NCBI RefSeq assembly: GCF_010500995.1
Contig: NZ_QVMK01000011.1
Location: 1-64,000 of the forward strand
Source of the DNA: Bacteroides sp. 224
Lineage (GTDB): Bacteria; Bacteroidota; Bacteroidia; Bacteroidales; Bacteroidaceae
Length of the DNA stretch: 64,000 nucleotides
Direction of reading: 5' to 3'
The notes under the pieces are model-generated. The model saw only the letters and a program-made list of their open reading frames with translations, made no database searches and was not told the origin of the DNA. A program made the position numbers and the translations under genes. Positions 17,511 to 28,366 of the stretch are shown here, piece by piece; position 1 is the stretch's first letter; each line of letters starts with the position of its first letter.

Positions 17511-17548
17511 GAATTAGGAATTAAGAATTGGTTGGGTGGTGATTGAAT

Positions 17549-17664
17549 TTGAACCGCAGAGTTACGCAGATTAACGCAGAGTTTTAATTAATACAATGCT
17601 GCATAGAACTAAAACTTAATCCTCTGCGTTAATCTGCGTAACTCTGCGGTTCAATATAACTCTA
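17549..17664. repeat. 33-bp-arm inverted repeat, copy 2
   Basis: The arms (17549-17581 and 17632-17664) are identical to those at 287-383. The loop is longer (50 bases) and related to the loop of copy 1 in reverse complement. It lies between the DUF2520 and kdsC genes. Confidence 0.8.
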
Positions 17665-17727
17665 TATGATATAGAACTAATTACGAATATCTACTCACAT
17701 AATTTTCATTCTAAATTGAAATAAACT

Positions 17728-18279: not shown

Positions 18280-18855
18280 ATGTGGAAAAACAACTATAAA
18301 CTAATACTTGCCTCTAACTCTCCGCGTAGGCAAGAATTATTAAAAGGGTTGGGGGTTGACTTCGAGGTGAAGGTGCTTCCCGACTTGGACGAATCATTTC
18401 CCGAAGAGCTGGTTGGCGAAGAGATTCCTCTCTATATAGCCCATTCCAAAGCGGAGGCCTATAAATCTTCCATCCTTGCAGATGAGCTGGTGATTACGGC
18501 AGATACCATTGTCTGGCTGCATGGAGAGGTGTTGGGAAAGCCTGTTGATGAAGAAGATGCCCGCCGGATGCTTCGTAAGCTTTCCGGCAATGTGCATCAG
18601 GTAATTACGGGTGTTTGTCTCACCACCTCCGCCTGGCAGAAAGGGTTTGCAGCAGTAACCGAAGTGACTTTCGCTACACTCACGGATGAAGAGATTGATT
18701 TTTATGTCGGCAACTATCACCCAATGGATAAAGCCGGCTCTTATGGTATACAGGAGTGGATCGGGTTTATCGGGGTCGAAAAGATAACGGGTAGTTATTT
18801 TAATGTGATGGGATTGCCGGTGCAGAGGTTGTATAGGGAGTTGGGGGAGATATAG
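18280..18855 (+). CDS. maf: Maf family nucleotide pyrophosphatase
   Basis: The 191-residue protein shows the Maf signature LILASNSPRRQELLKGLG near its N-terminus, ITADTIVWLHGEVLGKP, and the C-terminal MDKAGSYGIQEWI. Maf proteins hydrolyse non-canonical or normal nucleoside triphosphates such as dTTP and UTP, and influence septum formation in other bacteria. Confidence 0.93.
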   Translation: MWKNNYKLILASNSPRRQELLKGLGVDFEVKVLPDLDESFPEELVGEEIPLYIAHSKAEAYKSSILADELVITADTIVWLHGEVLGKPVDEEDARRMLRKLSGNVHQVITGVCLTTSAWQKGFAAVTEVTFATLTDEEIDFYVGNYHPMDKAGSYGIQEWIGFIGVEKITGSYFNVMGLPVQRLYRELGEI

Positions 18856-18921
18856 TATATTAAAAACATAGATAAAACAAAATGTAATTTCTGGTTTTAT
18901 CGTGTATAAAAGGTGGTAGTT

Positions 18922-18942
18922 AAGTGTGGCTATCACTTTTTT
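18922..18942 (+). terminator. Weak terminator after maf
   Basis: A 5-bp stem AAGTG/CACTT with a 7-base loop is followed by six T. It is short, so confidence is low. Confidence 0.35.
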
Positions 18943-18970
18943 AGTATCGTATTGAAAGATGAAATATAAT

Positions 18971-19001
18971 TTTGAATTATAAAATAACTATGCTATATTT
19001 G
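18971..19001 (+). promoter_or_regulatory. Promoter of the higBA operon
   Basis: TTTG (18971-18974), a 19-base spacer and TATATTTG (18994-19001) match the Bacteroidota consensus. It lies 20 bp before the toxin ATG, so the leader is very short. Confidence 0.75.
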
Positions 19002-19021
19002 TATTGAAATAAACATAGATC

Positions 19022-19315
19022 ATGAGAATATTTACAGAGCAAGCGTTAAAAGAGTACTCAGAAAATCATCCAGATGCTAAAGTGGCTCTTCAAGAGTGGG
19101 CTTTAAAAGTTAAACTAAGTGAGTGGACTTGCTTTGCAGATGTTAAGAATACATTTAATAGTGTTGATAGCATTGGTGATCAGAGGTATGTGTTTAATCT
19201 TAAAGGTAATAATTATAGACTGGTCGTCGTTATAAAGTTCACTATAAAGTTTGTTTATATTCGCTTTATTGGTACCCATTCGGAATATGATAAAATTGAT
19301 TGTTCAACAATATAA
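19022..19315 (+). CDS. higB: HigB-type toxin (mRNA interferase)
   Basis: The 97-residue protein has the RelE/HigB fold features of this family: MRIFTEQALKEYSENHPDAK at the start, GDQRYVFNLKGNNYRLVVVI and the C-terminal YIRFIGTHSEYDKID. HigB toxins cleave mRNA on the ribosome. The antitoxin follows 12 bp later, the toxin-first order typical of higBA, and a good promoter precedes the pair. Confidence 0.92.
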   Translation: MRIFTEQALKEYSENHPDAKVALQEWALKVKLSEWTCFADVKNTFNSVDSIGDQRYVFNLKGNNYRLVVVIKFTIKFVYIRFIGTHSEYDKIDCSTI

Positions 19316-19327
19316 AGTAATCGAACT

Positions 19328-19693
19328 ATGACAAAAATTGAAAATGAAGCTCAATATAATTGGGCTATTAAAAGAGTTGAAGAGTTGATTCCATTGGTGA
19401 ATGATGATACTCCTTTGGATAATCCTAATAGCATTGAATTGGAACTTCTTTCTAATTTAGTAGCAGATTATTCTGAAGCGCATTTTTCATTGGGAGAACC
19501 ATCACTTGTTGACATACTTAAACTACGTATGTATGAGATGGGAATAACCCAGAAAAAGCTCTCAGAATTGCTTAATGTTAGCCCATCCAGAGTAAGCGAC
19601 TATCTTACAGGTCGGAGTGAACCTACATTGAAAGTTGCCAGGGAGATGAGTAAAAAATTGAATATTGATGCAAATATAGTTTTGGGAGTATGA
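19328..19693 (+). CDS. higA: HigA-type antitoxin (XRE family)
   Basis: The 121-residue protein has a helical N-terminus and a C-terminal helix-turn-helix (MGITQKKLSELLNVSPSRVS, LTGRSEPTLKVAREMSKKL). It should neutralise the toxin encoded just before it and repress the shared promoter. Confidence 0.92.
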   Translation: MTKIENEAQYNWAIKRVEELIPLVNDDTPLDNPNSIELELLSNLVADYSEAHFSLGEPSLVDILKLRMYEMGITQKKLSELLNVSPSRVSDYLTGRSEPTLKVAREMSKKLNIDANIVLGV

Positions 19694-19726
19694 GTAGTGC
19701 AGAAGAATAAAATTCAAAACAGTTTT

Positions 19727-20215
19727 TTAGTTGTAGAAATTATTTTTCAATAAATTATCAAACTGTTTTTCTATTTCATCGCAGTTTTTGTGAGAAGATG
19801 AATACATAACTATTGCATAAGTTTCACTGTTAGAAGAGTTAAAAGAACCTTCCTTTTTGGCTATACTTCCATTGTTAAACTCGTTATACCATTTATCAAA
19901 CAATCTTTTTCTGTATAATTGCCTACCATCTATACTGTCATATATCACCACAAGTGCAGACTGATTGTTCTCAAAGAACTTAGATAAAATAACTAAAATT
20001 GTATTTCTTACTTTATTTTCGATATCTTTACTTTTCTTGTTTCCCGGATATCTATCAATTATAAAAGAATAAATTGGAAATTTTACATCCATTGCTCCGG
20101 AATAATCAAGAAAAGTTATAATATAATCTACTCCATCGTCAGTTTTGAATACGTATGCATTCTCTGAATAAGAAAAATAGAAATCAAAATGGCTTACCGA
20201 ATTTAATAGTTTCAC
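19727..20215 (-). CDS. DUF6169 family protein
   Basis: The 162-residue protein matches my recollection of DUF6169 of Bacteroidota: a strand-rich N-terminus (HFDFYFSYSENAYVFKTDDG) and RKRLFDKWYNEF in the middle. It begins with GTG at 20215 and overlaps the small upstream gene by 32 bp, which implies coupled translation. Function unknown. Pairs of a DUF6169 gene and a small gene recur in this phylum and may be toxin-antitoxin-like. Confidence 0.7.
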   Translation of the reverse strand: MKLLNSVSHFDFYFSYSENAYVFKTDDGVDYIITFLDYSGAMDVKFPIYSFIIDRYPGNKKSKDIENKVRNTILVILSKFFENNQSALVVIYDSIDGRQLYRKRLFDKWYNEFNNGSIAKKEGSFNSSNSETYAIVMYSSSHKNCDEIEKQFDNLLKNNFYN

Positions 20216-20330
20216 TCTTGAATCCTTTTAATGTTCCATTCTTTTTTATGTACTCGCGAATAGCCTTTTTATCATCCACCATTTGTTGGATAACATTCTT
20301 TTTTTCTTTTGTAATGCTATTGGCTTTCAT
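20184..20330 (-). CDS. Small basic protein paired with DUF6169
   Basis: A 48-codon frame from ATG at 20330 to TGA at 20184. The sequence runs from MKANSITKEKKNVIQQMVDD to NGTLKGFKSETIKFGKPF. It is hydrophilic and probably helical, ending with a conserved-looking KGF...IKFGKP segment. It precedes and overlaps the DUF6169 frame by 32 bp. Small proteins of this kind are usually found next to DUF6169 genes, as far as I recall. Confidence 0.65.
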   Translation of the reverse strand: MKANSITKEKKNVIQQMVDDKKAIREYIKKNGTLKGFKSETIKFGKPF

Positions 20331-20497
20331 TATATACCCCTTTCAATTAAATGTATTTGCTGATATGTTTTGGTAATACAAAGATAATCATCAACCACGA
20401 AAATATTTAAAATTCCTTTTAGTTTAACGAATAAAGACTTTTATTTATACGTTTTCTAAATAATATATGGATATATAATAAAAGTCTCTTCATTCCA
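20331..20497. other. Intergenic, left edge of the phage-like module
   Basis: AT-rich spacer between the start of the leftward DUF6169 pair and the 3' end of the leftward repressor gene. No gene is visible. A direct repeat that could be an attachment site was not found by eye. Confidence 0.4.
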
Positions 20498-21334
20498 TTA
20501 AAAATTCACCGCCCTTGGTTTTTTCTGTATTACATTATACAGCTTACGCACCTGATTTAAGTTGATCACAAAATCGGAATACTCCGGAGAATTATTCAGA
20601 GAGTGGCAGGTGATATCGCCATTTTCCATGTTCTGATGGATGATTTGCTTAATCATCACAGAGTTTTCGTACACAATTACCCAAAAAGGATATTTGTTAA
20701 GCCTTAAGCCATCTTTCCAATATATACTGTCGAGTTCGCGTGCCAGCACTTTGTCGCCGGGTTCAAATCCGAAACGGGTTTGGTCGTCCATGCTGTCGCC
20801 TTTGATTTCGAATGCCAGATAGTTGCCGCGGGCAAGTTGGTTCACTTCGAAGTTTTCGGTGTACCAATCATCCAAATTTTTTTCCAGTTTGTCGGATTCA
20901 TTTGCAAATCTTCCGTAAGCGTAGTAAGGTACTAACGGTACGTTCATTCGGTATGATCCATTCCCTAAATCGTAGAATTTGATTCCGTGGGAGTTTACAG
21001 AAATAAGTTCGCCTTCCTCTGCTGAGTTAGTGATAGCGTCAATTGTTTGAGTGCCATTAAGCTTCGGTGCCTGAACAGTAGGTGTAGGAAGGTTGATAGG
21101 AACGATTTCTCCCGGTTTTGCATGAATATCTCCAGTTCCGGTCAGTATCCAATCGAGGTTGTACTGCGGAAAGCGTTTCGCAATTTTTTGAATGGTAGAC
21201 CAGGAGGGTTTTCTTTTTTCGTTGATAATTCTTGTTATGGTAACATTGTTCCCTATCCCAATGGCCATGCTGAAGGAGTTCCTGTTCAGGTTTAGCTCAT
21301 TTATAATATATTGAATTCTTTCCCACGGTTGCAT
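20498..21334 (-). CDS. CI-like repressor (XRE helix-turn-helix plus S24 domain)
   Basis: The 278-residue protein has an N-terminal helix-turn-helix (NRNSFSMAIGIGNNVTITRI, PSWSTIQKIAKRFP), a linker of about 60 residues and a C-terminal S24/LexA-like domain with the serine motif IKGDSMDD and FEPGDKVLARELD. It resembles prophage repressors that are cleaved after DNA damage. It is divergent from the replication-type genes, with a promoter and a palindrome (TGCTTAAAGCA) in front of it, as in a lysogeny switch. Confidence 0.85.
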   Translation of the reverse strand: MQPWERIQYIINELNLNRNSFSMAIGIGNNVTITRIINEKRKPSWSTIQKIAKRFPQYNLDWILTGTGDIHAKPGEIVPINLPTPTVQAPKLNGTQTIDAITNSAEEGELISVNSHGIKFYDLGNGSYRMNVPLVPYYAYGRFANESDKLEKNLDDWYTENFEVNQLARGNYLAFEIKGDSMDDQTRFGFEPGDKVLARELDSIYWKDGLRLNKYPFWVIVYENSVMIKQIIHQNMENGDITCHSLNNSPEYSDFVINLNQVRKLYNVIQKKPRAVNF

Positions 21335-21373
21335 AGTAAGTGTTGTTATTAAGTTTAGAAACGAAAATGCTAA

Positions 21374-21416
21374 TGCTTAAAGCACAAAGTTAATAGTTAT
21401 TGTTTTGTTTTGCAAA
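21374..21416 (-). promoter_or_regulatory. Repressor promoter with operator-like palindrome
   Basis: On the minus strand TTTG (21416-21413), a 20-base spacer and TAACTTTG (21392-21385) form a consensus promoter. Just downstream, over the likely start site, lies the palindrome TGCTT-A-AAGCA (21374-21384), a candidate operator for autoregulation. Confidence 0.65.
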
Positions 21417-21818
21417 TTATTGGGGAACGAAATGTGTTAAGGTTAGTGCTCTTTTGGTGTATGTCGAATCTTTTATCTGTCTGTTTATTAGCGACTTTTG
21501 TTTTGCTGCATGAATAGTTATTTGTCTCTCCTTTATATGTTAAAAGATGTATTTCGTGGATTCTCTTTCGAATCTTTTGCTTTTCAGGTAAATCTATTTG
21601 ATTGACTGTTTTCATTATATATGCTTCTTTTGACGATTTTTTATTGCTAAGTGTTTTATAGCTAATAAATTGAGTTTCCATTGAAATTCTCGCTGTTTAC
21701 TTCGAATTGCTGTTCGTTTCTTTATTAATATTCCAATTATAAAGTGATTTATTGTGTGGCAATCGAAATATATTCGTTAAATAGTGATAATGAGCGAATC
21801 TTTTTTAGCTTGATATAG

Positions 21819-21848
21819 TTTGCGATAAAATTTAAGTTAGTATGTTTG
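21819..21848 (+). promoter_or_regulatory. Rightward promoter of the phage-like operon
   Basis: TTTG (21819-21822), an 18-base spacer and TATGTTTG (21841-21848) match the consensus. It is about 115 bp before the first gene at 21964. Confidence 0.65.
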
Positions 21849-21963
21849 CACTGTCGAAACGATGAAGAATTGTCGAGTAATCTTTCTTAAGATATTTGAA
21901 AATGAATCATCGAAATCGCCAAGATAATAAATGCAAAATAGATAACTATTAAAAAAGAAACAA

Positions 21964-22287
21964 ATGAAAACTACTCAACCTCTACAGAAAGTAATGAACC
22001 TGGCTTGGCAGTTTGTGCGTAATGATCATTATACAATGAGCGAAGCCTTGAAATGTGCCTGGCTAAATAGCAAGTTGCAAGCAGAAATGGAAAAACGTGT
22101 AGTGTGTTTCTTCTTTCAACGGGTGGATGGAAAGCAACGAATGGCATTCGGCACGCTGGAAGAAACCTTGCTACCACCCCTGAAAGGAACAAATAAAAAG
22201 CCTAATGAGGGTTTGCAAGTGTACTTTGATATCGAATTTGGCGAGTTTCGCTCTTTTAGAAAAGCTAACCTTGTGAGAGTAGCCTAA
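21964..22287 (+). CDS. DUF2693 (SH3-like barrel) protein
   Basis: The 107-residue protein has an N-terminal helical region (NLAWQFVRNDHYTMSEALKC) and a barrel-like C-terminus (VVCFFFQRVDGKQRMAFGT, FDIEFGEFRSFRKANLVRV). It matches the DUF2693/SH3-beta-barrel family common in Bacteroidales mobile elements, of unknown function. Its stop codon overlaps the start of the next gene (TAATG). Confidence 0.75.
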   Translation: MKTTQPLQKVMNLAWQFVRNDHYTMSEALKCAWLNSKLQAEMEKRVVCFFFQRVDGKQRMAFGTLEETLLPPLKGTNKKPNEGLQVYFDIEFGEFRSFRKANLVRVA

Positions 22288-22589
22288 TGACGCTCATAAA
22301 CAATCCTATCGCCAACACCCGCAGAAGCATTGACTTTGTCGTTCGAAAACTCATTTCCCGGTTGGAATTCGAAGACGTCACCGTGGAAGAAGACCTGAAC
22401 GAATGCTGTACCGTTTTTGTGGATATTGCCATTTGCAACTATGACTCTTATCCCGAAATGGAAATTACAGCCGTGGAAGTAATAAAAGACGGAAAGAATC
22501 ACGAATGCTCCCTTCCAAATATCGCCGATTATATAGGTGGTCGGTTGGATGCTGCTGCGAAGAGGATGAATGCGGAGGAATTGAATTAA
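22287..22589 (+). CDS. Hypothetical protein of the phage-like module
   Basis: The 100-residue acidic protein shares a base with the stop codon of the previous gene, so it is translationally coupled. I do not recognise a family. Its C-terminus (IADYIGGRLDAAAKRMNAEE) is likely helical. Confidence 0.65.
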   Translation: MTLINNPIANTRRSIDFVVRKLISRLEFEDVTVEEDLNECCTVFVDIAICNYDSYPEMEITAVEVIKDGKNHECSLPNIADYIGGRLDAAAKRMNAEELN

Positions 22590-22590
22590 A

Positions 22591-22696
22591 ACCACAGATT
22601 AACACGGATTTTCACAGATTAAACTATTCCACTACAAGACCAAAAAGGACAGATTTTTTAATTAATAATCTGTGAGAATCTGTGTTAATCTGTGGT
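22591..22696. repeat. Inverted repeat hairpin (ACCACAGATTAACACGG)
   Basis: 31-base arms (22591-22621 and 22666-22696), nearly complementary, enclose a 44-base loop. It lies inside the operon, between two genes, and may end or slow transcription. The same type of hairpin recurs at 25826-25913. Confidence 0.7.
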
Positions 22697-22721
22697 GAAC
22701 TCACTCAAAACAAAACAAAAT

Positions 22722-23549
22722 ATGAATGGATACAAATTAACCAAAAGACTAAAGGAAGTAAGAGAGAAAACACCCTTATCGGCAATCGACCAGGTTTTAT
22801 TTCATGAACTGGCCTCTATCTGTAATGAAAAGATGTGGGAAGAAACATTTAATGTACGGACATCAAAGTTGGCAGATGCATTGAATATATCAAAGAAAAC
22901 AATTCAAAAATCGAGAAAAGAACTCGCTAAGGCCGGACTAATTGCTTATACCACCGCTGCCAATAATCAGTTGGGATGTTCGTACTCATTAATGGAAAAA
23001 GTAATAAATGATGAGCCAACCAGGGTAACAGTTACTCCAGTTACCTCATCGTTGATACCTGTAACCAGGGAAGCTACTTCCTCGGTTGACCCCCTAACTG
23101 AGGAAGTTATTACCCCGGTTCCCCCATTTTCACCTATTATATATAATAAAACAATATATATAAAACATAAAGATACTGCGCCTAAGCGCAAATCTACTTC
23201 TTTAGAAAATAAAAAGAGTAAACAGATAGATAAAAGGGATCTTTCGACTTTAGATTATCCCCATACCTCGGAAGAGTTTATGGCAATATGGGAGGAGCTT
23301 GCCGGCACTGCCAAATGGAAAACCAAGAAGAATGGATCTTTGCAGCGCTCACTTAACAAGCTGGCAAAATACGAAGAAGCCTTCGCCATCGAACAAATGG
23401 AAAGAGCTATCGAGTGCAACTGGATGGGAGTAGTATTCCCCAATACCGATAAATATTACGAAGAATGGAAAAAAGCCAAAAACGATGAATATAAAAGAAA
23501 TAATCAACCAGAGAAAAAGTCGGCCGGAATCATCTCTTTCGAGTTCTGA
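22722..23549 (+). CDS. Helix-turn-helix replication-initiation-type protein
   Basis: I start at the ATG at 22722 (275 residues); the earlier start falls in the hairpin. The N-terminus is a winged helix (VRTSKLADALNISKKTIQKS, RKELAKAGLIAY) like phage replication proteins of the O or DnaD type. A variable linker follows, then a C-terminal helical region (YPHTSEEFMAIWEELAGTAK, WKTKKNGSLQRSLNKLAKYE). The next gene encodes a DnaC-like ATPase and overlaps by 65 bp. The O/P-like pairing suggests initiation of element-specific replication. Confidence 0.75.
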   Translation: MNGYKLTKRLKEVREKTPLSAIDQVLFHELASICNEKMWEETFNVRTSKLADALNISKKTIQKSRKELAKAGLIAYTTAANNQLGCSYSLMEKVINDEPTRVTVTPVTSSLIPVTREATSSVDPLTEEVITPVPPFSPIIYNKTIYIKHKDTAPKRKSTSLENKKSKQIDKRDLSTLDYPHTSEEFMAIWEELAGTAKWKTKKNGSLQRSLNKLAKYEEAFAIEQMERAIECNWMGVVFPNTDKYYEEWKKAKNDEYKRNNQPEKKSAGIISFEF

Positions 23550-24183
23550 CAAAACATACCAACTGCATGGCAAACCCATAGACCTGAATACATTCGACGC
23601 AGAGAGATTTTGGAAGTTTGAATTCGTAAAATCAATGAAGAAAGTATGTCCTTCTTTTGTGATAGATGATCAGAATAAAGCACTATTAAATACCCTTTAT
23701 AAATATGCCTGGCGAATGGAAACGGGTACTCTGAACCCTACCAAGGGGCTGTTGTTGTGGGGAGGGTTGGGGGTAGGGAAGTCGACTTTGCTAAAAGGAC
23801 TCCAAGACTACGAAATGAAGATGAACCGATATGTTTATCATTCTGAATGCCCCATCTTAGGGTTTCATCTGACGTCTGCCACCGAGATTGCTCTGCGCTA
23901 TGCCGAAAAAGGAGTCGATGCCATTGTAGCCTATACAAGCAAAAGAAATCTGGCTATTGATGAGGTGGGGCGCGAACCTTTGGCTGCCAAACATTATGGA
24001 ACTCAGGCAAATGCCATTCAGCTCATACTGCAACTTCGGTATGAAAAAAGATTCGAAGGGAACAGTCATCTGACAACTAATCTGGACCCCGATAAGGAAT
24101 TCGATGTTTATGGCAATTTCGTGGTCGACAGAATTAAAGATATGTTCAATGTGATTAGAATAAACGGAGAAAGTAGGAGGTAG
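23485..24183 (+). CDS. DnaC-like AAA+ ATPase (helicase loader)
   Basis: The 232-residue protein has Walker A GGLGVGKST (93-101), a Walker B-like LAIDEVG (156-162) and a segment HLTTNLD resembling sensor 1. It fits the IstB/DnaC ATPase group that loads replicative helicase. The overlap with the previous frame (65 bp) suggests coupling. No helicase gene is seen in the module, so it would recruit the host DnaB. Confidence 0.78.
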   Translation: MNIKEIINQRKSRPESSLSSSDKTYQLHGKPIDLNTFDAERFWKFEFVKSMKKVCPSFVIDDQNKALLNTLYKYAWRMETGTLNPTKGLLLWGGLGVGKSTLLKGLQDYEMKMNRYVYHSECPILGFHLTSATEIALRYAEKGVDAIVAYTSKRNLAIDEVGREPLAAKHYGTQANAIQLILQLRYEKRFEGNSHLTTNLDPDKEFDVYGNFVVDRIKDMFNVIRINGESRR

Positions 24184-24240
24184 GTGTTAATTAAGAATTA
24201 AAAATTAAGAATTAAGAATTGAAATTGGGGGGATAAGATT

Positions 24241-24603
24241 ATGATTACGAGCAAACATTTTAAAGAATTAGAATTTAAACGGTGTATTCCAACTTGTAGC
24301 TTACAGGATATGAATCAGCATTTTATGAACAAGTTAGATACGCTTCGCGATGTAGCCGGGATGCCGATTATCATTAACAGTGCATACCGCAGTGAGGGTT
24401 GGGAGAAATCTAAAAACAGGAACGGCAAAGGAGATCATTCTCAGGGGAGAGGAGTAGATATTCGTTGCCATACCTCGACCGATAGATACCGAATTTTGCA
24501 AGCGGCTATTCAAGTAGGGTTCACACGCATCGGAATAGCCAAAACATTTATCCATGTAGGAGAAGGGGAAAATTTACCCCGAGAGGTTATTTGGATGTAT
24601 TGA
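24241..24603 (+). CDS. M15-family zinc peptidase (endolysin-like)
   Basis: The 120-residue protein is a single-domain peptidase of the VanY/M15 type with zinc ligands in HSQGRGVDI and in the later IHVG, and the conserved NSAYRS. Such enzymes cut peptidoglycan stem peptides and act as endolysins in phages. It has no signal peptide. It would need a holin or other route to reach the cell wall; the smalltalk peptide downstream is a candidate. Confidence 0.85.
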   Translation: MITSKHFKELEFKRCIPTCSLQDMNQHFMNKLDTLRDVAGMPIIINSAYRSEGWEKSKNRNGKGDHSQGRGVDIRCHTSTDRYRILQAAIQVGFTRIGIAKTFIHVGEGENLPREVIWMY

Positions 24604-24626
24604 TAGTTGAATAAACCGTTCTTGGC

Positions 24627-24736
24627 TTTTTGCCGCGGGCATAAGAGTAAACTCTTGCGGGCGATCCAATAATTTGGCACGGGCGATTCAACAATTTGCC
24701 ACGGGCATTTGAATATCTTGTTGCGCCCGTATAAGA
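24627..24736. repeat. Five tandem 22-bp repeats (TTGCCGCGGGC core)
   Basis: Five units of 22 bp start at 24627, 24649, 24671, 24693 and 24715. Each has TTG near its left end and a CGGGC or GCCCG core. They match the pitch and architecture of the arrays at 41007-41116 and 55141-55250, in which the core is CGGCCG. The array is GC-rich against an AT-rich background and lies upstream of the HU gene. Confidence 0.7.
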
Positions 24737-24750
24737 TGCACATACTTGCG

Positions 24751-24810
24751 AATGCGGCAATTTGCGGACGTAAGCGGACGTAAGCGGACGGCAGCGGACT
24801 TTGGCGGAAT
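24751..24810. repeat. 10-bp tandem repeats (TAAGCGGACG)
   Basis: Six consecutive 10-bp units each contain GCGG at the same position, two of them exact copies of TAAGCGGACG. They directly follow the 22-bp array and end about 20 bp before the -7 box of the HU gene. A pitch of 10 bp equals about one helical turn. Confidence 0.7.
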
Positions 24811-24829
24811 GAGCCGAAAATGACTTCTC

Positions 24830-24837
24830 TATCTTTG
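24830..24837 (+). promoter_or_regulatory. -7 box of the HU gene
   Basis: TATCTTTG fits the Bacteroidota -7 consensus. A TTTG occurs at 24800-24803, but with a 26-base spacer, so the upstream box is not convincing. Confidence 0.45.
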
Positions 24838-24899
24838 TTTCGGATTAGGAAAATAGAGAGCCTGATCGATTAAAGTATTTATTTAAAAACAATTTAGTT

Positions 24900-25409
24900 A
24901 TGTCATTATTTTACAAAGCTTATCAAAGTACATTGAAGTCGCAAGATGGAATTCGCAAATTCTTTCCGCGAGTAATTAAAACAGGAGGAACGGTAGAAAC
25001 TGCCGAGCTTGCCGAAGAAGTAGCCGAACGATCGTCTCTCACCCCGGGCGATACACAAAATGCTATCAACAACCTGATTCCTGTGATGCGTCGGCATCTA
25101 TTGAACGGTTGCGCTGTGAAGCTGAACGGGTTGGGAACGTTCATCGTAGTTTCCAAATCAAACGGCAAGGGAGTGGACACGGAGGAAGAGGTGAGTGCCT
25201 CGCAGATCACCGGTTTGCGTATTCGTTTTACGCCTTCTTACACCCGTAATAGTATTGAAGGTACTACCCGTGCCATGTTTGGTGGGGTAGAGTTTCGCAA
25301 GTGGGGAGACAAGAATGCAAAAGCGGAAACAACCAATCCCGGTGGTTCGAACCCCGGTGGTGGTAACAACCCGGGTGGCGGTGATGAATTTATCGATCCG
25401 TCGGCTTAA
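24900..25409 (+). CDS. HU-like DNA-binding protein with glycine-rich tail
   Basis: The 169-residue protein has a central HU/IHF-like fold (VETAELAEEVAERSSLTPGD, GCAVKLNGLGTFIV) and an N-terminal extension. The C-terminal tail of repeated NPGG units (NPGGSNPGGGNNPGGG) is low-complexity. This is the HU-like type found next to DUF4248 and smalltalk genes in Bacteroidales. Its DNA targets are unknown. Confidence 0.85.
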   Translation: MSLFYKAYQSTLKSQDGIRKFFPRVIKTGGTVETAELAEEVAERSSLTPGDTQNAINNLIPVMRRHLLNGCAVKLNGLGTFIVVSKSNGKGVDTEEEVSASQITGLRIRFTPSYTRNSIEGTTRAMFGGVEFRKWGDKNAKAETTNPGGSNPGGGNNPGGGDEFIDPSA

Positions 25410-25470
25410 AAAGTAGGCTTTTGGGGAAGCTCAAACCTATGAATTATAAACTTAAAAACGCAAAATTGAA

Positions 25471-25677
25471 ATGAGTAAAGTATATACAAAAGGAGAATTG
25501 GCTTCCCTGTACCTGCCAAACGTGTCGATAGATACAGCCCGTAAAAAGTTGCGGGTTTGGATAAAAAACTGTAGGGATTTAGAGCAAAAATTAACAGAGA
25601 TAGGGTATAGCCCATGCGCCAAATTATTGACACCTGCACAGGTGGAACTGATAATGGAGTATTTGGGGGAGCCTTAA
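25471..25677 (+). CDS. DUF4248 domain protein
   Basis: The 68-residue protein fits DUF4248 (YTKGELASLYLPNVSIDTAR, LTPAQVELIMEYLGEP). It is likely a small helical DNA-binding or adaptor protein; function unknown. It lies between the HU-like gene and the smalltalk gene, its usual neighbours. Confidence 0.8.
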   Translation: MSKVYTKGELASLYLPNVSIDTARKKLRVWIKNCRDLEQKLTEIGYSPCAKLLTPAQVELIMEYLGEP

Positions 25678-25699
25678 AAACAAAAAAAACAATACGATT

Positions 25700-25801
25700 A
25701 TGAAAATGAATAGTAAAACATGGGATGTGATTCTGAAAGCAATTATTGCAGTGGCAAGTGCGGTGCTTGGGGCGCTGGGGGTGCAGGCGATGAATTTGTA
25801 A
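25700..25801 (+). CDS. Smalltalk protein
   Basis: A 33-residue frame starting MKMNSKTWDVILKAIIAVAS and ending GALGVQAMNL. It has one hydrophobic helix with small residues (AIIAVASAVLGALG), the hallmark of the smalltalk family found next to HU and DUF4248 genes in Bacteroidales. It starts 22 bp after DUF4248. A holin-like or small membrane role has been assumed but not shown. Confidence 0.8.
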   Translation: MKMNSKTWDVILKAIIAVASAVLGALGVQAMNL

Positions 25802-25825
25802 GGAGGAGAGGAGTGTGAGGGAGTT

Positions 25826-25913
25826 TTCACCACAGATTAACGCAGATTTCACAGACTAAAATTCAAAAAAGCAATAAATAATCTGTGTTAATCTGCGAAA
25901 TCTGTGGTGAACT
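25826..25913. repeat. Inverted repeat hairpin (TTCACCACAGATT)
   Basis: Imperfect arms of about 30 bases with a short AT-rich loop, of the same type as the hairpin at 22591-22696. It lies between the convergent ends of the smalltalk gene and the gene at 25916, and may serve as a terminator. Confidence 0.65.
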
Positions 25914-25915
25914 CT

Positions 25916-28366
25916 TTACACAAACAAATTCACATTCGCCCCCTCAGCCCGTTCCATATAAGTAGCTACACCTCCAATTGTTACTCCATCCAGAAGTTCC
26001 TCTTTTTTCACTCCCATGACATCCATCGACATTTGGCAAGCAATAAATTCCACACCCTGCTCGATGGCTTGATTTCGCAACGATTCCAACGAATCGATTC
26101 CTTTTACTTTCATTATATGCCGCATCATTCGGCTGCCCATGCCTCCCATATTCATTTTAGATAGTTTGAGCTTGCGGGAGCTGGATGGAAGCATCATGCC
26201 AAACATTTTACCGAAGATATCTTTGGAAACATGAGGCTTTTTCTCCTTTTTGATAGTATTCAACCCCCAGAAAGTAAAGAAGATGGTTACCTTTTCGCCG
26301 GTAGCGGCAGCGCCGTTGGCCAGTACGAAGGTAGCCAGTGCTTTGTCGAGATCGTCGCTGAACATGATGAAGGTTTTGCCCTTGCCGCCGGTGTTGGGAG
26401 AGGAGGGAAGTGTGCAGGAAGGAATCCCCTTTTCGATGACTACTGTATACTTCCCTTTTTCTTCATTGTTAGATATCAGCCTATTGCCGGTGGTATTGCA
26501 CCAGGCTTGTGCATCACGGGCAAATCCGGCGTCGGTGGCAATGATTTCCAGGCGTTCGCCCGGGCTCATGGTGTCGATAGATTGTTTCATACGTAGCACG
26601 GGGCCCGGACATTGCAAGCCGCAGGCATCTACGCGGATGGTTTTTATTTCAGTAGACATGGTTGCTTGAGGGGTATTGTTTTTATTGTTTTCTGAGGTTG
26701 ATGTTGGGGTATTTGTAATGGGGGCAATGGCGGCCGAATAGGTTTTATAGCCTCCCAATAGGTTTTTGATGTTACTAAAACCTTTGGCAACTAATATCTT
26801 AGTGGCCTGATAACCACGCAGCCCAACAGCACAGTAGATGAAAACAGGCTTGTTGGTAGGCACCTCGTTTACTCTACTTCGCAATTCCTCTACAGGGATG
26901 TTTATAGCTCCGGAAATATGACCCATCGAAAACTCATCCCTTGTGCGTACATCCAATAGTACGCTTTCGTTTGCATCTGCTTGCTGCACTTCGCGCCAGG
27001 TGATAGAGGGCATTTCTCTGTTAATGATATTGGAAGCCACATATCCGGCAATTGCAATAGGATCTTTTGCAGAAGAGAAAGGGGGAGCATACGTATGTTC
27101 CACGCGCGTGAGGTCGTAGATGGTACCACCGTTTTTTATGAGTAACGCAATTTGGTCGATGCGCTTGTCTACACCATCATAGCCAACGGCCTGGGCGCCA
27201 TAAAGTTTTCCGCCGACAGGATCGAACGTAAGCTTTATACTTAAAGGCAAGGCATCCGGATAGTAACCCGCGTGAGAACCGGAATGTGTCCAGGAACTTT
27301 GATAGGAAATTTCCATCTGCTTCAGGCGCTTGGCTGCAAGTCCGGTAGAGGCTACGGTTAGATCGAAAACCTTGGCGATACTTGTTCCGATGGCACCTTC
27401 ATAGTGGGTTTTATTGCCGTACACCATGTTGTCGGCTACAATTCTTCCTTGTCGGTTGGCGGGGTTAGCGAGGTAGTTTAGCCAAGGCTTTCCGGTGAGT
27501 GGATGCGGAAATTCAATGGCATCACCCACGGCATAAATATCTTCTTCGGAGGTTTGCAGGTGTTCGTTTACCCAAATGCCTCCTGTTTCTCCTATTTTAA
27601 GATTTGCTTTTCGGGCGAGGGTTGTCTCCGGCCTTACACCAATAGAAAGGATAACGATATCGGCAGGAATCATTTCTCCGCTTTTAAAGTGCACCCGGAT
27701 TTGGTTATCGTCTGAAGTAAATCTCTCCACGCTTTGTTCCAGATAGAGCGAAATTCCTTTCTGTAAAAGGTGTTGATGTACTTGCGATGCCATCGAAAAG
27801 TCGATCGGCGCCATTACCTGATTGCCCATTTCTACAATGGAGACGTGCGCTCCCGCATGATGCAGATTCTCCGCCATTTCCAATCCAATGAATCCGGCTC
27901 CTACTACCACTGCCTTTTCTATTTTCCGATCGGTAATGTACTTCTTTATCCGGTCGGTGTCATTAACATCCCGAAGAGTGAAAATGCCATTGAGGTTAAG
28001 CCCTTCGAGGGGTGGTCTTACGGGTGTTGCTCCCGGAGAAAGTAATAGCTTATCGTAACTCTCGGAATATTCGCTTCCATCTGCTTTTCGTATCTTCACG
28101 GTTTTGGCAGATGGATCAATATCTATCACCTCATTTTCAACCCTCACATCTATATTGAATTGATTACCAAACGATTCGGGAGTTTGTAGGAAAAGTTTTT
28201 CCCTTTCGTCGATTACTCCACCTATATAATAAGGTAATCCGCAATTGGCGTAAGATATGTATTTTCCTTTCTCCAGTAAGATGATTTGTGCTTCTTCATC
28301 TGCCCGACGGATTCTTGCTGCTGCAGTAGCTCCGCCCGCTACACCTCCGATGATAATATGTTTCAT
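25916..28366 (-). CDS. CoA-disulfide reductase fused to rhodanese, TusA and DsrE domains
   Basis: The 816-residue protein begins with an FAD/NAD(P)H disulfide reductase of the CoA-disulfide reductase type: GGVAGG at 7-12, single active Cys42 in SYANCGLPYYIGG, and a second nucleotide fold VVVGAGFIGLEMAENL. A rhodanese domain follows (about 455-545, Cys512 in FIYCAVGLRGYQ), then a TusA-like domain (about 576-645, Cys586 in CGLQCPGP) and a DsrE-like domain (about 662-816). The family handles persulfides and thiols. The chain of sulfur-transfer cysteines in one protein suggests movement of sulfane sulfur along the polypeptide; the physiological role here is not known. Confidence 0.92.
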   Translation of the reverse strand: MKHIIIGGVAGGATAAARIRRADEEAQIILLEKGKYISYANCGLPYYIGGVIDEREKLFLQTPESFGNQFNIDVRVENEVIDIDPSAKTVKIRKADGSEYSESYDKLLLSPGATPVRPPLEGLNLNGIFTLRDVNDTDRIKKYITDRKIEKAVVVGAGFIGLEMAENLHHAGAHVSIVEMGNQVMAPIDFSMASQVHQHLLQKGISLYLEQSVERFTSDDNQIRVHFKSGEMIPADIVILSIGVRPETTLARKANLKIGETGGIWVNEHLQTSEEDIYAVGDAIEFPHPLTGKPWLNYLANPANRQGRIVADNMVYGNKTHYEGAIGTSIAKVFDLTVASTGLAAKRLKQMEISYQSSWTHSGSHAGYYPDALPLSIKLTFDPVGGKLYGAQAVGYDGVDKRIDQIALLIKNGGTIYDLTRVEHTYAPPFSSAKDPIAIAGYVASNIINREMPSITWREVQQADANESVLLDVRTRDEFSMGHISGAINIPVEELRSRVNEVPTNKPVFIYCAVGLRGYQATKILVAKGFSNIKNLLGGYKTYSAAIAPITNTPTSTSENNKNNTPQATMSTEIKTIRVDACGLQCPGPVLRMKQSIDTMSPGERLEIIATDAGFARDAQAWCNTTGNRLISNNEEKGKYTVVIEKGIPSCTLPSSPNTGGKGKTFIMFSDDLDKALATFVLANGAAATGEKVTIFFTFWGLNTIKKEKKPHVSKDIFGKMFGMMLPSSSRKLKLSKMNMGGMGSRMMRHIMKVKGIDSLESLRNQAIEQGVEFIACQMSMDVMGVKKEELLDGVTIGGVATYMERAEGANVNLFV

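Follow-up and report, generated by a model that had tools for sequence, protein, structure and literature searches.

A phage-like cassette of Bacteroides sp. 224 belongs to a genus-wide multi-copy family whose HU proteins carry a C-terminal tag that is genome-specific in most genomes read

What kind of element is the compact gene group at positions 20498-25801 of a 64,000-nucleotide stretch of the Bacteroides sp. 224 genome (contig NZ_QVMK01000011.1; hereafter the window)? It had been read from the sequence alone as possibly a reduced phage satellite or a domesticated, damage-inducible lysis unit. The group is a member of a multi-copy cassette family of the genus, with DUF4248 and an HU protein of the HU-HIG family as the core, to which a wall hydrolase and a small protein are often added. 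In most genomes read, the last ~8 residues of these HU proteins are genome-specific and common to divergent paralogues. The nine open reading frames (ORFs) of the window cassette were run against Pfam, NCBIfam and PHROGs, which resulted in the following features:

20498..21334, minus strand: S24/CI-like repressor, divergent to the operon (PHROG transcriptional repressor, E=8e-15)
21964..22287, plus strand: WYL_2 (DUF2693) protein, also seen in prophage early regions (E=3.9e-17)
22287..22589, plus strand: 100-aa ORF, matching no family and absent from the earlier gene list
22722..23549, plus strand: O-like replication initiator with a winged helix-turn-helix (HTH) (PHROG replication initiation, E=3e-8); ATG start, GTG at 22692 possible
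23485..24183, plus strand: DnaC-like helicase loader (PHROG, E=1.2e-13)
24241..24603, plus strand: M15_3 peptidoglycan peptidase, predicted from sequence (E=1e-9; PHROG endolysin)
24900..25409, plus strand: HU-HIG DNA-binding protein with a Gly-rich linker (Pfam 6e-18, TIGR01201 4e-32)
25380..25406, plus strand: codons of the HU C-terminal tag GDEFIDPSA, a genome-specific tail
25471..25677, plus strand: DUF4248, a small protein predicted to form four helices (E=1e-25; AlphaFold2 pLDDT 86.6)
25700..25801, plus strand: smalltalk/DUF6486, 33 aa with a single hydrophobic stretch (E=1e-15)

All nine ORFs are open, and the genes listed by the sequence-only reading (S24, DUF2693, O-like, DnaC-like, peptidase, HU, DUF4248 and smalltalk) were recovered in their order and with their families; WYL_2 is presumably the family formerly named DUF2693. 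Compared with the cassette family as defined here, the window has DUF4248 and HU-HIG within 6 kb, a replication gene set (O-like and DnaC), a small hydrophobic protein with a wall hydrolase (smalltalk, with M15_3 replacing Amidase_2) and an HU protein with the C-terminal tag of its genome (DEFIDPSA).

In the comparison set of 158 genomes of the genus Bacteroides (genomes are coded G and loci L), DUF4248 was found in 129, with at most 14 copies per genome and eight in Bacteroides sp. 224 itself. A census was compiled from 70 loci in 11 genomes, comprising nine loci of the window's own genome (the window included), L070 and 60 regions from ten genomes; L062 of the own genome was found via smalltalk and lacks DUF4248, yet it is counted. 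The hidden Markov models (HMMs) of the census were built from the census loci themselves, and the neighbourhood was set to 6 kb. Within this distance, HU was found at 66 of the 70 loci, an amidase at 44, a VapE-type gene at 27, a DnaB-type gene at 23, smalltalk at 25 and the 96-aa protein mem96 at 19. VapE-type and DnaB-type genes do not co-occur at any locus (Fisher p=7e-7) and neither do smalltalk and mem96 (p=4.7e-5), p values that are too small given that many census loci are orthologous. Each pair looks as if it filled one slot. The hydrophobicity of mem96 is moderate (best 19-residue mean 1.1-2.5 in seven proteins), and it may be a membrane protein. A small-protein gene lies directly upstream of the amidase gene in 28 of 45 cases, and HU lies upstream of it in 41 of 45. 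The alternative replication sets are PrimPol/BT4734-VapE, DnaD-like with DnaB, Lin1244-like with Toprim-DnaB and the O-like with DnaC set of the window, which is a rarer variant, VapE or DnaB being present at 50 of the 70 loci; the Pfam and PHROG names of these alternatives are BT4734-N and VapE, DnaB and DnaD-like, Lin1244-like and Toprim-DnaB, and Amidase_2. Parabacteroides distasonis carries such cassettes under RefSeq names.

The HU tag was first evident in the window's own genome, where all eight cassette HU tails read contain DEFIDPSA or DDFIDPSA. All 12 pattern matches of this genome end in D[E/D]FIDPSA, on HU bodies with a median identity of 25%; the 12 are a count of tagged HU proteins. 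The genome has at least 12 loci with tagged HU, the window cassette among them. A search of six genomes for FIDP[S/A]A followed by a stop gave 12 matches in the own genome, 12 in G266 and none in the four others, and all 24 are HU proteins; the reversed-pattern control gave one match in the own genome and none in the others. Other genomes carry other tails: FIDPAA in G266 (6/6), IVDDPTA in G222 and G217 (6/6) and EAPDPAA in G343, G225 and G237 (27/27, three HU with another ending being set aside). In G344 EAPDPAE was found five times and DPGE and DPAA once each, and in G204 VTPDPSV six times and VTPDPAV and QTPDPSI once each. Furthermore, ETPDPAA (G214, G252), ESPDPTL (G203), ENENPLG (G216), LDENPLG (G290), VDENPLG (G339), QGENPLG (G342) and NGGNEVG (G163) were read. 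With regard to the last seven residues, 14 of 22 genomes are uniform, four are nearly so (G000, G002, G204, G344) and four are mixed. Close to the tagged HU, six loci (L190, L202, L216, L211, L321, L326) have another HU paralogue that bears no tag and ends in VYIKV, VYTKV or IEHH; it is possibly of the HU-wHTH type.

Across 104 proteins of 22 genomes, from which eight HU paralogues with other endings were set aside and in which only HU with a stop inside the locus were counted (L066, for example, has none, nor do some of the 40 further regions fetched), identity in the last seven residues averages 0.93 for proteins of one genome and 0.375 for proteins of different genomes, a contrast that 0 of 500 label shuffles reached. 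Tails of same-genome pairs whose bodies are <30% identical agree at 0.97 (203 pairs), whereas cross-genome pairs with bodies 60-80% identical agree at 0.31 (140 pairs). Above 80% body identity the tails of cross-genome pairs are 0.72 identical (120 pairs), because sister species often have one tag. In a stricter set of 41 proteins from nine genomes, which leaves out near copies and the genomes G225 and G237, the values are 0.96 and 0.48 (0 of 2000 shuffles); in the same set the linker gives 0.192 versus 0.158 and the first seven residues 0.29 versus 0.30. A column-by-column comparison covered five families. The excess of within-genome over between-genome identity rises to 0.71 in the last eight residues of HU, and its largest values in the other four are 0.06 in DUF4248, 0.13 in the amidase, 0.17 in smalltalk and 0.09 in VapE.

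The common HU tag suggests a common partner of the cassettes, and the simplest reading would be that each genome has a single partner whose gene lies outside the cassette families compared. Synonymous codons of the tails vary inside each genome, so that a DNA site at the 3′ end of HU was rejected and the constraint looks protein-level. The tail might instead have been homogenised by gene conversion among paralogues and not selected as a tag, which is improbable. In favour of such copying, the last 36-39 bp of HU at four own-genome loci are 86-92% identical to the window copy, and codon sharing at the PDP positions (0.679 versus 0.667) does not discriminate against it. The synonymous differences within each genome and the linker just upstream, which is not homogenised, speak against it. 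Between EAPDPA(A/E) and VTPDPSV the third base of the Ala/Thr codon is kept in five of seven G204 loci. In G344 and the TSDC17.2-1.1 assembly (97-98% identical where compared), the tails are mostly DPAE, with DPAA at one locus. Separate substitutions under protein selection are therefore favoured by these codon and tail patterns.

Purifying selection acts on the cassette genes at other loci, smalltalk excepted. For orthologous cassettes at shared sites, 22 pairs were tried, and the ratio of non-synonymous to synonymous substitution rates (dN/dS) was summed over those whose dS lay at 0.1-2. It is 0.079 for HU, 0.095 for DUF4248, 0.102 for the amidase, 0.122 for VapE, 0.093 for DnaB, 0.055 for mem96, 0.185 for C8 and 0.169 for Lin1244-like (one pair), compared with 0.078 and 0.114 for the neighbouring genes UpxY and Wza. 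Several cassettes hold one site across several species. Others differ between close relatives: G222 and G218 carry the L180 cassette, which G217 lacks, and of the L178 cassette G222 has a copy, G218 a deletion scar and G217 and G243 nothing. That L178 had inserted cleanly with target duplication (7.08 kb, overlap of 4 bp in G218) was considered and rejected, the fusion of orf770 to the smalltalk 3′ end being a deletion scar. L199 keeps DUF4248 and a DnaB fragment, which marks an internal deletion, and L274 is a deletion scar. In the G222/G218/G217 comparisons no insertion mechanism was found, and neither excision nor attachment repeats were seen.

At the window's own site, the HAD-maf block on the left and the LT-amidase/mce/dnaA block on the right are both conserved in relatives. 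In relatives, 11 stretches lying upstream of LT-amidase were inspected and maf is absent from each, which places the window cassette at a synteny break. In G266, the closest relative, the cassette genes have no match beside either block. Its locus L070, on another contig, holds S24, DUF2693, an O-like gene, DnaC (51% identical), HU and DUF4248, and the S24 of its second cassette, L184/L272, is 58% identical to that of the window. With the G266 cassettes elsewhere and no match beside the blocks, the window cassette is therefore a mosaic whose position is not conserved. Since the combination recurs elsewhere, it is no chance assemblage. The mobility suspected earlier agrees with this recurrence and with the presence and absence between close species; a mechanism of insertion did not emerge. 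The window's smalltalk lies in a 130-bp segment 91.5% identical to L061 of the same genome, and the HU proteins of the two loci are 32% identical.

Relatives of the window DnaC occur in 33 of the 158 genomes, its own included, but at >=50% identity only G266, G212, G233 and G234 have one besides the window itself. The DnaC-bearing early regions of G234, G212 and the viral contig L175 contain NinB, NinG, Erf, RecE/ExoVIII-like or RecT genes, and in G212 a terminase small subunit lies downstream. Since its relatives lie in such prophage early regions, the early block of the window (S24, DUF2693, O-like, DnaC) is of phage type. Among the systems closest to it are the early regions of tailed prophages in Bacteroides (G234 L073/L249, G233 L072/L250, G212 L071, IMG/VR L175), with S24 41-43% (G234), DUF2693 53-54% (G234, G233) and DnaC 48-54% identical. 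The window differs from these in that recombination, terminase and structural genes are unmatched and that it ends in the HU/DUF4248/smalltalk core, and in this variant an early block of temperate-phage type is coupled with that core. As the sequence-only reading had noted, integrase, terminase and capsid genes are lacking: the nine cassette ORFs gave no match to these families in Pfam, NCBIfam and PHROGs. For this negative, the flanking ORFs 19022-19315, 19328-19693 and 19727-20215 were scanned with one library each, and small ORFs such as 21397-21681 (minus strand) are left out. Terminase, portal and capsid genes, as expected of a complete prophage, are not among the scanned ORFs. Attachment sites were not established from repeats sought in 19000-26000 at most 600 bp apart.

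Viral scans with HU, with the DUF4248 alignment A2 and with the window's own tag gave zero matches, the viral scan with DnaC gave one contig and a genome-contig scan with DnaC gave none. DUF4248 was found in 12 faecal contigs named 'Bacteriophage sp.', which are unannotated and of which one was opened, and in 12 'plasmid' records (11 opened, 10 of these from TSDC17.2-1.1 assemblies). A scan with the EAPDPAA tag gave 10 IMG/VR stretches, eight of them with HU and DUF4248. An IMG/VR stretch catalogued as a virus (L345, L346, L348, L349) has a pair of cassettes with a tyrosine recombinase and a ~1000-aa gene between them, the latter resembling a lipoprotein gene on inspection by eye. A further cassette with an adjoining glycosyltransferase gene (L363) lies on the 190-kb Bacteroides ovatus BFG-107 'plasmid unnamed1' (NZ_CP081918.1). 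L363 is 98% identical to the chromosomal region L191, and the record, called a circular plasmid, is either a large circle or an assembly artefact.

Four additional features were annotated:

19022..19693, plus strand: toxin-antitoxin-like pair adjoining the cassette (HTH_3 and PHROG 5734 by HMM)
21385..21416, minus strand: Bacteroides-type promoter match TTTG-N-TANNTTTG ahead of the S24 repressor
21819..21848, plus strand: Bacteroides-type promoter match ahead of the replication operon
22591..22696, no strand: long palindromic repeat between the 100-aa ORF and the O-like gene

In the gap between S24 and DUF2693 the promoter matches point outward on both strands; in the whole window nine matches of the motif were found, with 2.19 expected. 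Pfam HTH_3 and S24 matches of the repressor itself fall under the Pfam cut-offs. Ser181 and Lys229 are kept in all six aligned S24 repressors and would, by their position, form the catalytic dyad. At the cleavage-site position L061 and L070 have Ala-Gly, the window and L184 Gly-Arg, and L063 and the prophage copy L249 Ala-Arg. An SOS-inducible S24 protein combines the Ser/Lys dyad with an Ala-Gly or Cys-Gly bond; the window has the dyad and lacks the bond. SOS-type cleavage is unsupported for the window S24 because Gly-Arg replaces Ala-Gly, and with it the damage induction put forward earlier; another signal or an antirepressor is a possible trigger.

The palindromic repeats at 22591-22696 and 25833-25895 share AATCTGTGTTAATCTGTGGT as a building block, and relatives of these repeats occur at the own-genome loci L061, L062, L065, L066 and L068. 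A dispersed repeat at 17540-17675 has copies up to 93% identical at L062 and L067 of the same genome. Homologues of both toxin-antitoxin-like genes, a pair that we would liken to the HigBA/RelE type, adjoin the cassettes L193, L218 and L235, and the pair is probably optional cargo. No signal peptide is evident in the M15_3 peptidase on inspection by eye, and the catalytic-motif pattern matched IHVG only. PDB searches gave nothing below E=1 for the DUF4248 model, no relatives of the peptidase at E 0.01 and three chance antibody matches only for the S24 repressor. Rfam had zero matches in 18800-26500.

Taken together, the reading we prefer, tentatively and with a probability of about 0.4, is a chromosomal cassette that replicates in place and lyses the cell, with its HU protein recruited by a common host factor; the family and the tag are held more firmly than this figure, replication and lysis less firmly. 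The S24 repressor would keep the operon silent until some signal lifts repression. The O-like protein and DnaC would then bring the host's DnaB helicase onto a local origin, so that the locus is amplified in place, and HU would coat or bend the replicated DNA. Through the C-terminal tag, which a flexible Gly-rich linker carries, HU would bind a single partner that is encoded on the chromosome and serves the cassettes of the species, and the M15 peptidase as hydrolase and smalltalk as membrane factor would act last. The lysis unit of the sequence-only reading is plausible to this extent, given a peptidase and a small hydrophobic protein here and small-protein/amidase gene pairs elsewhere.

Several points weigh against this reading. 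The replication, lysis and tag-partner roles are themselves deduced, and the M15 and smalltalk genes of the window are not adjacent. The nearest homologues of the window's own genes are ~40-58% identical, so that the dN/dS values come from other loci; there, smalltalk gave 0.438 (four pairs, one of them, L209/L226, read in a wrong frame) and one amidase pair, L198/L208, gave 0.52. Tails are mixed in G335, G338, G244 and G241, the tail DSESPDEI is present in three of four P. distasonis HU proteins while the fourth differs, and two Phocaeicola loci have no common tag. The PDP codon sharing does not tell gene conversion from point change. A tyrosine recombinase of the one cluster modelled lies within 6 kb at 12 of 70 loci, an annotated integrase lies beside Parabacteroides L355, and tyrosine recombinases occur in several IMG/VR stretches. 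Of P. distasonis it can be added that L354 and L355, from one genome, have near-identical HU bodies with the tails GFGVA and DSESPDEI, so that nature itself supplies a variant of the tag.

A reduced phage satellite of the type of phage-inducible chromosomal islands, replicating on helper phage entry and packaged in helper capsids, is distinctly unlikely. The part of this proposal that stands is the phage-type early block with repressor, initiator and loader, which resembles tailed prophages with NinB/NinG, Erf, RecT or, once, a terminase small subunit; unmatched structural genes and the different sites in the own genome and G266 also fit it. It does not agree with a genus-wide multi-copy family in which only 4 of 70 loci have S24 within 6 kb (a single cluster underlies each of the HMMs for integrase and S24, so that other recombinases or repressors near cassettes may escape) and in which several cassettes keep one site in several species. 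Integrase and excisionase are unmatched among the scanned ORFs of the window cassette, and G222, G218 and G217 show a deletion scar or plain absence. A decaying prophage remnant without present function, to be rated about as low as the satellite, would explain the phage-like early genes, the internal deletions (L199, the L274 scar) and selection figures that come from other loci and not from the window's own genes. It conflicts with nine open ORFs, with dN/dS of 0.055-0.185 for family genes elsewhere (smalltalk apart, at dS <2) and with an HU tag held at the protein level across paralogues.

A chromatin or regulatory unit, in which HU-HIG and DUF4248 control adjoining variable surface loci and the replication and wall genes are baggage, is also unlikely, if slightly less so. 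UpxY, Wza or Wzc were found within 6 kb at 11 of 70 loci, a count without a background rate, and polysaccharide genes lie next to three of the four cassettes in Parabacteroides. According to the available part of PMC3969353, the Porphyromonas gingivalis HU gene PG0121 adjoins a surface polysaccharide operon, alters its transcription and is required for normal capsule transcription; PG0121 is, however, a classical ~10 kDa HU and not HU-HIG, and in that part neither the cassette genes nor the tag are described. No recognised capsule locus adjoins the window cassette, and replication and amidase genes are constrained much like HU. The least probable of the rivals is a defence system in which HU-HIG senses invading DNA and the hydrolase and membrane protein kill the cell. 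A hydrolase and a small hydrophobic protein are present, and the expanded HU proteins of Bacteroidetes were reportedly proposed by Burroughs et al. in 2017 to recognise invasive DNA. In PADLOC, run with eight window proteins (smalltalk left out), no defence-system component was recognised; only the O-like protein matches, weakly and within its HTH. The BT4734-VapE protein of L193 matches the PADLOC PrimPol and DRT-associated models. What replication initiators and helicases would do in such a defence system is not apparent.

By HMM the window HU is a member of the HU-HIG family (PF18291 / TIGR01201), with a similar Gly-rich C-terminal extension. This family was reportedly described by Burroughs, Aravind and colleagues in 2017 as expanded in Bacteroidetes, and to our knowledge that description has no genome-specific, paralogue-wide terminal tag. 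The C-terminal tip of the single-stranded DNA-binding protein SSB and the cargo-loading peptides of encapsulins are short conserved C-terminal peptides on a flexible linker that recruit a partner; the HU peptide differs from them in that it changes from one species to the next and recurs on divergent paralogues. Replaceable replication modules, as in the cassette family, are known from integrated elements, in which primase-helicase modules interchange, with the BT4734-like family and DUF3987 helicases named (PMC5862659, 2018). The part of that paper available makes no mention of HU-HIG, DUF4248, smalltalk, amidase or such multi-copy cassettes. In the few papers that name DUF4248 or smalltalk they appear, as far as the accessible text goes, as list entries or as one small gene of P. 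gingivalis. In the literature searched, which was mostly open-access, no description of the cassette family or of the HU tag was found.

An extension of the preferred reading is more speculative and less probable than the satellite or the remnant: the cassettes of one genome would form a decentralised element, separate replicons with a common species-specific HU address tag that co-evolves with a chromosome-encoded carrier or docking protein. If this were true, HU-bound amplified DNA, together with adjoining variable surface loci, would be handed to a single machine for packaging, export or segregation, the cell would be opened by the hydrolase and the small membrane protein, and a change of the carrier would force a joint change of the tags. 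Such a joint change is suggested by the six VTPDPSV loci and the one QTPDPSI locus of G204, whose sister-species counterparts carry EAPDPAA or EAPDPAE.

Cassettes of this kind lie in many Bacteroides chromosomes, annotated piecemeal as DUFs, HU, smalltalk, amidase, VapE or DnaB. Once they are viewed as a single family that is under selection and has interchangeable replication sets, their function becomes testable. The HU tail tag, an unexpected addition to the earlier gene description, is a peptide of 7-8 residues predicted to bind one host protein, for which the tag differences between sister species are natural controls. Should that protein prove to be a carrier or a partition factor, dispersed loci of one chromosome would use one machine in common.

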